A stretch of 35,531 nucleotides of DNA from an uncultured Actinomycetes bacterium (lineage in GTDB: Bacteria > Actinomycetota > Actinomycetes > Nanopelagicales > Nanopelagicaceae), in assembly GCA_903832395.1 (NCBI GenBank), contig CAILBF010000017.1, positions 1 to 35,531 of the forward strand. The letters are read 5' to 3'. The position numbers and the translations under genes are program-made. The notes under the pieces are model-generated. The model did no database searches and was not told the DNA's origin. It worked only from the letters and a program-made list of their open reading frames with translations. Below are positions 5,580 through 9,457 of the stretch, in pieces. How positions within the stretch are numbered: position 1 is the first letter of the stretch; every line of letters begins with the position of its first letter.

Positions 5580-7592
5580 ATGCTGAGGAAGGCTGTAACT
5601 CTCGTATTAACTCTCTGCATATCGCTATTAGGCCTGCAGAGTGTTCAGGCCTCTCCACGCGTCTTTGGAACTTATCAACTTGATTTTCTGCCTATTGCCA
5701 CTAATTTAGGAAGTGCAATCCCAACAGAGGCGATTGCAAGAGAGTTGACACGTTTAGCAAGTTTGGCCTTTGAAGATGCTAGCCAAGGAAGAATTAAATT
5801 TTCATTTAGAAGATTATTACCAGAGTACAAAGCTAGCGAAAGAGTTGACAATGCAACCCAAGTGGGCAAATTTTACGGCACACCCGCTGTAGCCGATTCT
5901 GGTTTTGCTGGTGTATTTGTCGTCGGGATCATTCCGAATGACTCCACGGTATTTTTTGCAGGGCAATCCGATACAGGCCAAAATTTGATTATGAACGGCC
6001 CGCTAAATACAAATGGATCTACTGTTCATGTGTTTACTCACGAACTCGGCCACAACTTCTATTTAATGCACGCCGATACTTCGGTGTGTTCTGTAGTCAA
6101 TAGCCAATTGACGTGTGATCGAAATGACTATGGAGATAAATCCGATCCGATGGGCAGTTACATAATCGGTTACTATTCGAATCCACCTTTGGCACGTTTC
6201 AGTGCAACTATGCTCGACCAGCTCGGCCTGATCGCTGCAACGGAAAAGACCGAAGTACTAGATTCTGGTGATTTCACAATCGTTCCCGTTTACCCACTTA
6301 CGCGCTCTGGCGTGCGCCTTCTCGAGATTCCTATTAATGATGAAGTTGCGTACACCATTGAATATCGGGATCCCGTGGGGGTGGAGGCTCAATTAAATGC
6401 AACGCAAATAAATGTGCCAGGGGGGAATAGTTATTACCCGACAATTCCATCGTACGGTTTTCAACTTCGAATGGTCAAACCCCTAGCAACTCACAGTGAC
6501 GGGCTATTGCCTGTAATTAACTATGGACTACATGGAGGAACGGCGCTTGTTGTCGACTCTCAGTCTGGGCGGCAGGGTTTTGATGCAGGACGAACTCAAA
6601 ATCTCTCGGACGGGACCGTAGTCACATTCATTAGCTATGACTCTGTAGCAGGCGCAAAAATTCGCATAACTCGGCCCAAAGACTCTTCGCCACCAGTGAT
6701 AAATTCTCCTACGTTCCGCATGTATACAGAAAGTGGCTCGTATTACACCACCAACGATCTGACAATTAAGAAATCTGCGGAAGGCAGTAGTGATTGGCCG
6801 ATTTTTAAATTAGATACTCGAGCAATTTCAGATGATCGCCGCTTAAAAACTGTCAGTTTACTTTTTAACGGTGAAATTGTTGCAACTCAAAGTGATGTGC
6901 CACTCGGAGCAAAAAACCTCCTGATATATAATCCAACTCAGACGGGTAAATTTGATGTAACTGTCGAAGCGAGCGACTACTTAGGCAATAAATCTACCGC
7001 TAGTTTAGGAACCTATAACTTAATTAAGTATTTACTGCAAAAACCTTGGATAACTAGCAGCGTTAAAGAAGATACCTTGACTATTATAGTTAATAGACTC
7101 GCCACGGAGAATATTAAGTATGAGATATCTAATATCTCAGCGGGAAACTTAATTGACCAATCTACCCAAGGCAACAGCACAACTTTCACAGTTGGTGGGT
7201 TACGTTCTAAGCAAAACTTCACAGCACAATTTTCAGGCACAGATGAATTTGGAAATACCGATGATGGCTCAACGTTTGAGACCGAAATTCCGGGGCTAAC
7301 ATGCGACAGTTCGCAATGTTATGTTGGCATTACATGGGATGTTAATAATCTTTACTGGCAATCAATTACAGGCAAACTTGAGCTGCAAGAAAAACTAGCC
7401 AATAAGTGGAAGACGATCAAATCGGCAACTGCAATTAAGGATTCAACTAGGGTCGGGGGCTTTCCGTACACCTATAAAATCTCCATGATTTACACACAAC
7501 CCGGGACGCATACATATCGCCTATATATCGCTCCAAGCAAGAAGTTCACCGCGTGGATTGGGCGCAGCTTCACCCAAATCGTTCTGCCTTAA
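5580..7592 (+). CDS. secreted zinc metalloprotease, gametolysin (peptidase M11)-like, with C-terminal Ig-like/FN-like region
   Basis: Signal peptide MLRKAVTLVLTLCISLLGLQSVQASP; HELGHNFYLMHA (HExxHxxxxxH) followed by YGDKSDPMGSY (Met-turn-like) and ARFSATMLDQLGL. Confidence 0.7.
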   Translation: MLRKAVTLVLTLCISLLGLQSVQASPRVFGTYQLDFLPIATNLGSAIPTEAIARELTRLASLAFEDASQGRIKFSFRRLLPEYKASERVDNATQVGKFYGTPAVADSGFAGVFVVGIIPNDSTVFFAGQSDTGQNLIMNGPLNTNGSTVHVFTHELGHNFYLMHADTSVCSVVNSQLTCDRNDYGDKSDPMGSYIIGYYSNPPLARFSATMLDQLGLIAATEKTEVLDSGDFTIVPVYPLTRSGVRLLEIPINDEVAYTIEYRDPVGVEAQLNATQINVPGGNSYYPTIPSYGFQLRMVKPLATHSDGLLPVINYGLHGGTALVVDSQSGRQGFDAGRTQNLSDGTVVTFISYDSVAGAKIRITRPKDSSPPVINSPTFRMYTESGSYYTTNDLTIKKSAEGSSDWPIFKLDTRAISDDRRLKTVSLLFNGEIVATQSDVPLGAKNLLIYNPTQTGKFDVTVEASDYLGNKSTASLGTYNLIKYLLQKPWITSSVKEDTLTIIVNRLATENIKYEISNISAGNLIDQSTQGNSTTFTVGGLRSKQNFTAQFSGTDEFGNTDDGSTFETEIPGLTCDSSQCYVGITWDVNNLYWQSITGKLELQEKLANKWKTIKSATAIKDSTRVGGFPYTYKISMIYTQPGTHTYRLYIAPSKKFTAWIGRSFTQIVLP

Positions 7593-7633
7593 CCTCCTTT
7601 GATTCATTTCACGGCTTGAGTTAGACTTAACCT

Positions 7634-7678
7634 ATGTTGCGCAGTCTCCTCCTTAGCTGCCGTGGCGGGGTCAAATAA
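7634..7678 (+). CDS. leuA leader peptide MLRSLLLSCRGGVK
   Basis: ATG TTG CGC AGT CTC CTC CTT AGC TGC CGT GGC GGG GTC AAA TAA; consecutive Leu codons; -35-like TTGATT (7599-7604), 17-bp spacer, -10-like TAGACT (7622-7627), 6 nt to ATG. Confidence 0.85.
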   Translation: MLRSLLLSCRGGVK

Positions 7679-7741
7679 CCGATCCCCTCGCCGCGGGGTT
7701 TGTCGTATCGGTACAAACCCCGAGCCCATAAGGAGCAGTAA
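7634..7741 (+). promoter_or_regulatory. leuA leader RNA (actinobacterial LEU-element-like)
   Basis: CTCCTTA (7649-7655) complementary to TAAGGAG SD region (7729-7735); perfect hairpin CGGGGTTTGT (7694-7703)/ACAAACCCCG (7713-7722); alternative GGCGGGG (7664-7670)/CCCTCGCC (7685-7692) stem enclosing the leader stop codon. Confidence 0.8.

Positions 7742-9457
<1,716 letters not shown>

Follow-up and report, generated by a model that had tools for sequence, protein, structure and literature searches.

The leuA leader and its helices

The window analyzed here, a stretch of 35,531 nucleotides from an uncultured Actinomycetes bacterium whose closest named genomes belong to Planktophila and other Nanopelagicaceae, contains leuA at positions 7742 to 9457. 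This is the regulated gene of the locus and encodes a 2-isopropylmalate synthase with matches to Pfam HMGL-like, IPMS_D2, and LeuA_dimer; the gene and all leader features described below lie on the plus strand. The region between glnA and leuA encodes a 670-aa protein with a weak match to reprolysin-like metallopeptidases (5580 to 7592), while in several relatives glnA directly adjoins the leuA leader.

leuA is preceded by an open reading frame of 14 codons (7634 to 7678, with the ATG at 7634 and the TAA at 7676 to 7678) whose product is MLRSLLLSCRGGVK and whose start coincides, or nearly so, with the inferred transcription start. A -10 box of the form TANNNT, TAGACT, occupies 7622 to 7627, 6 nt 5' of the leader ATG, and a possible -35 box, TTGATT, is found at 7599 to 7604. 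An initial interpretation, here called the sequence-only reading, had proposed a promoter made up of these two hexamers, and both are indeed in place with a spacing of 17 nt, TTGATT being a weak consensus match that the promoter consensus scan did not pick up. The regulatory Leu codons CTC CTC CTT (7646 to 7654) overlap the sequence CTCCTTA (7649 to 7655), which had been noted as an anti-Shine-Dalgarno and is a perfect 7-bp complement of the leuA Shine-Dalgarno (SD) sequence TAAGGAG (7729 to 7735). Six nucleotides separate the SD from the leuA ATG at 7742, and the two complementary segments form the arms of what we refer to as the base stem.

Between these arms lies a pseudoknot that had been overlooked. 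Its first stem, S1, is an unbulged helix of 11 bp with two G-U pairs (7660 to 7670 with 7686 to 7696), and its 5' arm also codes for the C-terminal part of the peptide. The second stem, S2, pairs ACCGAT (7678 to 7683), the first base of which is the last base of the stop codon, with ATCGGT (7707 to 7712). S2 crosses S1, giving an H-type pseudoknot, and the leader stop codon is located in loop L1, as it is in nearly all relatives. The sequence-only reading contained a bulged 7-bp stem presented as an alternative to the other helices. This stem proved to be the core of S1, while the bulge and its status as an alternative did not hold up. One RNA segment would in this way combine putative sensor codons, the peptide code, a pseudoknot arm, and the anti-SD.

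A perfect 10-bp hairpin, also described previously, is formed by CGGGGTTTGT (7694 to 7703) and its exact complement ACAAACCCCG (7713 to 7722), and it presents the 3' strand of S2 in its apical loop. Since its 5' arm shares no more than three bases with S1, at the end of the S1 3' arm, the two helices can largely coexist, and the hairpin does not conflict with the base stem either. The predicted fold of the leader is more stable than those of its shuffled versions (z -3.0, 1/200). When the window was searched against Rfam 15 at the gathering threshold the only hit was a tRNA elsewhere, with chance-level matches at the leader locus, and a known riboswitch or T-box was rejected as an identity for the leader for want of a family match.

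Conservation of the leader across the class

In an alignment built from the leuA upstream regions of relatives, S1 and S2 together were paired in 97.1% of alignment cells, as compared to 31-56% in slid versions, and 13 cells were doubly changed versus 2.5 in shuffles. All 11 pairs of S1 were present in 167 of 195 representatives. The arms of S2 matched their own partners better than swapped ones both in the low-GC, Nanopelagicaceae-type sequences (z -5.9) and in the GC-rich others (z -7.4). The window therefore has the conserved pseudoknot that characterizes a LEU element, with both stems covarying. In three Planktophila-type genomes (L013, L014, and L034) an extra hairpin, CCGAAACT...AGTTTCGG, is inserted after the leader, with S1 on one side and the S2 5' arm on the other, which is what a free L1 loop would lead one to expect.

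The 10-bp hairpin behaved differently from S2, with its arms preferring their own partners in the Nanopelagicaceae-type sequences (z -6.5) and not in other Actinomycetia (z +0.6). It was rejected as a core element because the partner test fails outside of the Nanopelagicaceae, and from this comparison it looks like a lineage-specific addition of that family.

For the base stem, the complementarity seen in the window alone is weak (P about 0.05), and so the single-window statistic was not used as proof. Random synonymous Leu codons drawn according to local usage gave a complement of at least 7 nt in 5.4% of draws, and random 15-mers of the window did so in 0.9%. Across relatives, own partners were preferred over swapped ones (z -5.9), and the own-partner test limited to the SD zone gave a z of 5.0. 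The partner of the codons ends mostly 4-12 nt 5' of the start codon, which is where the SD lies. These swap tests leave some relatedness signal, the size of which was gauged with an upstream control segment. With the Leu codons only, z was -3.4 and -3.9 against control values of -2.7 and -1.1, respectively, and the control value of -2.7, obtained in the Nanopelagicaceae, indicates that part of the base-stem signal there is relatedness.

Codon choice in the leaders carries a signal of its own. Among leaders with a single CTCCTN in which N is not T, the SD-side base matched in 10 of 10 (5 G-C, 4 A-T, and 1 G-T; all-case permutation P 0.0002), and the unusual codons CTA and TTG are paired with matching unusual partners (L053, L070, and L223). 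In 88% of the GC-rich relatives the final Leu codon of the leader is CTT, a codon that makes up 5% of the Leu codons in the genes downstream; in the low-GC, Nanopelagicaceae-type leaders it is CTT in 42 of 42, versus 29% of gene Leu codons. Judged by these counts, the choice of the leader Leu codons is not made for the protein. The base stem is weaker than both S1 and S2, with a contiguous helix of at least 6 bp missing in 28% of representatives, and on this comparative evidence the codon-SD pairing is nonetheless real across the class. The complementarity proposed from the window is in this sense kept in homologous leaders, and the window itself has the full 7 bp expected of the base stem of a LEU element.

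The leaderless start of the leader is conserved as well. An in-frame leader start is present in 214 elements, and 213 of them have TANNNT 5-10 nt upstream of it, the most common distance being 6 nt (108 elements). Shifting the search by 7, 14, 21, and 28 nt reduced this to 28/211, 19/209, 3/206, and 4/201, and we rejected an artefact of start-codon choice as the source of the conservation given this collapse. The S. lividans leuA leader, MRFGLLLLSCRGEGL, is a leaderless transcript without a terminator (PMC8079986), which agrees with the leaderless initiation proposed for the window; the same peptide is also encoded at locus L314 of the compared set. Taken together, covariation, codon choice, partner tests, and placement of the -10 box put the element far above chance.

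Distribution and copies before other leu genes

A covariance search had been suggested as a check, and a model built from the leader core with S1 as its only structure matched 284 of the 296 class genomes. The window's own genome had a single match, and in other classes of the phylum 3 of 73 genomes had weak ones. The leader ORF is conserved over 224 unique elements. The identification of a LEU element in the leuA leader is thus borne out, with the leader peptide, the pseudoknot, and the codon-SD base stem all present and covarying class-wide. In some Nanopelagicaceae (L066, L076, L077, L079, L080, and L081) the element has been lost and the end of glnA abuts leuA. The low-scoring second matches L329, L332, L335, L337, and L338 were discarded as chance-like since they lack a proper leader or leu gene. 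The LeuA proteins of two metagenome-assembled genomes titled Bifidobacterium breve (L216) and Streptomyces griseus (L226) are 91% and 85% identical to that of the window, and these titles look misassigned.

At L162, L174, L177, and L190 a second leuA gene is preceded by a further copy of the core. A LEU-type element is also found directly 5' of leuC in L310, L316, and L330, with leaders that contain RLLLRCRGGAS and read ...RLLLRCRGGASS. The pseudoknot core was additionally found before leuB at 13 loci spread over at least six families (L312, L313, L317, L319, L320, L321, L331, L333, L334, L336, L351, L353, and L367), and an element was present at 6 of 30 leuB loci examined. Where the leuA leaders have their Leu run, the leuB leaders have Val, Ile, Leu, and Phe codons, as in MLWSVRILSCRDEAR and MRSVFVLIDCRGEA, and those checked have a -10 box 6-10 nt 5' of the start. 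S1 has 11 of 11 pairs at all 13 loci, and S2 keeps its pairing while its sequence varies (GAGAGGCC/GGCCTCTC, GTCAGCCA/TGGCTGAC, and GGTCGGC/GCCGACC; z -4.0). Most of these loci (L312, L313, L319, L320, L321, L353, and others) have a small conserved ORF between the element and leuB, with a ...DRRDNGGETGH-like tail ending like ALQEAMDRRDNGGETGH, and the output step is therefore probably different there. No leuB or leuC version was described in the literature we searched, which comprised papers available without subscription. This distribution makes it somewhat probable that the LEU pseudoknot, rather than being specific to leuA, serves as a portable sensor of branched-chain amino acids, with a codon run that can be exchanged and several outputs, of which the codon-SD stem is one.

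A probable ribosome-sensed leader and related systems

The best mechanism for these features, and one that we consider likely from the sequence comparisons and the folding model, is that the LEU element is a ribosome-sensed leader controlling the translation of leuA. Transcription would start at or beside the leader AUG, with a ribosome initiating on the leaderless 14-codon ORF. When leucyl-tRNA is plentiful, this ribosome would pass the Leu codons, reach the stop codon in L1, and depart, after which the S1/S2 pseudoknot could form and be closed by the base stem, with CUCCUUA pairing to UAAGGAG and hiding the leuA SD. When leucine is scarce, the ribosome would stall on the Leu codons and cover the anti-SD along with the beginning of S1, which would free the SD and allow leuA to be translated. 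We infer from the model the stalling itself, the direction of control, and action at the level of translation rather than transcription.

A direction of control in which a stalled ribosome frees the SD fits the anatomy of the leader and its predicted folding. In a nested folding model, which ignores the pseudoknot and kinetics, the free leader folded from its own start formed the base stem with a probability of 0.84 and left the SD unpaired with a probability of 0.065. Masking the Leu codons with a ribosome footprint brought the base stem to 0 and the unpaired SD to 0.34-0.37, the SD being only partly freed because a weak local hairpin remains. Within this model, the masking result supports the stalled ribosome as the opener of the SD. 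With a ribosome placed at the stop codon, the base stem is likewise lost in this nested model, which counts against the proposal.

A single tRNA(Leu) isoacceptor probably reads both CTC and CTT, which could explain part of the codon bias without any pairing. Codons of this kind resemble an anti-SD, and the complementarity could be incidental if the codon choice reflects that isoacceptor or slow codons, a reading that draws on the P of about 0.05 in the window alone, on the dominance of CTC and CTT in leaders throughout, and on the more than one register possible in many leaders. It is quite improbable given that own partners outscore swapped ones, that 9 of 10 wobble changes to G or A face a matching C or T on the SD side, with a G-U pair in the tenth, and that unusual codons come with matching partners. 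Another explanation accepts the Leu-rich leader as the classic signature of transcription attenuation, intrinsic or Rho-dependent, with ribosome position deciding the outcome and codon-SD pairing being secondary. Classical attenuators have been predicted at actinobacterial trp operons, as have ilvB leader peptides with terminators (PMC1262725). Our terminator scan found no conserved terminator, and a terminator-like stem with a short T run at 7686 to 7698 is weak, having only 5 pairs and overlapping the S1 3' arm. The sequence-only reading had pointed to the absence of a terminal T-tract, and the relatives likewise have no conserved T run 3' of their hairpins, so the leader was not accepted as a terminator in the absence of a conserved stem and T run. 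With S. lividans leuA also reported without a terminator (PMC8079986), attenuation appears unlikely here.

Seliverstov et al. proposed a ligand from the ML1624 family with a DEAD-box domain (PMC1262725), and the pseudoknot could accordingly be the site of such a trans-acting protein, which would govern access to the SD and leave the leader peptide secondary. The element co-occurs phylogenetically with ML1624 orthologs (PMC1262725), and several S1 pairs are invariant in sequence, but the S1 5' arm is also coding and hence constrained for that reason. As summarized in PMC1262725, leader mutations in S. coelicolor are inconsistent with classical attenuation, and Leu-codon mutations are concluded to have no influence on regulation, which is the main fact that speaks against the ribosome-sensed leader and would suit a protein ligand. 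If the base stem was not restored when the Leu codons were mutated, the pairing would be lost too and such a test would be confounded. The leader ORF, its leaderless start, and the position of its stop are conserved as much as the RNA, and the replacement of Leu codons by Val, Ile, and Leu codons before leuB points to codon sensing; a protein as the main regulator therefore seems improbable, and we continue to favor the ribosome-sensed leader.

For nonspecialists, the locus is an ordinary and widespread regulator of leucine synthesis; the analysis adds numbers from sequence comparison in support of each helix, together with a module that is likely wider. Transcription attenuators of leu and trp genes in Proteobacteria have leaders rich in codons for the pathway amino acid, as the leader here does, but require a terminator hairpin and a U run, a combination that this leader lacks. 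We know of no such conserved pseudoknot in the polycysteine leaderless sORFs of mycobacteria. In those sORFs, codons for the product of the pathway likewise control a downstream operon, with cysteine taking the place of the leucine in the window, as far as Canestrari et al. 2020 is recounted in PMC9094748. In Corynebacterium, too, the leu leaders have consecutive Leu codons ahead of leuA, as in MNRANLLLLRRGGSQA of C. diphtheriae, a species in which the leuA transcription start could not be assigned; these leaders are termed attenuators, unlike the element in the window (PMC4046766, PMC5784534).

The peptide of LeuL1 in S. lividans TK24 closely resembles that of the window in its plan, and LeuL1 is also leaderless and without a Rho-independent terminator; it was seen by RNA-seq in a paper that does not give a structure or mechanism (PMC8079986). 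The closest likeness is to the LEU element predicted 5' of leuA in Actinobacteria by Seliverstov, Putzer, Gelfand, and Lyubetsky in 2005 (PMC1262725), which shares with the window the position before leuA, a leader ORF with a Leu run, the pseudoknot, the codon-SD base stem, and the lack of a terminator. As far as we found, the window places this element in a lineage without an earlier description, and it adds to the 2005 element both the Nanopelagicaceae and the 10-bp hairpin presenting the S2 3' strand. Leaderless spacing and covariation are quantified here, while the 2005 paper favored a protein ligand. The class-wide data make the mechanism of the LEU element directly testable, and the natural compensatory changes suggest which mutants to make.
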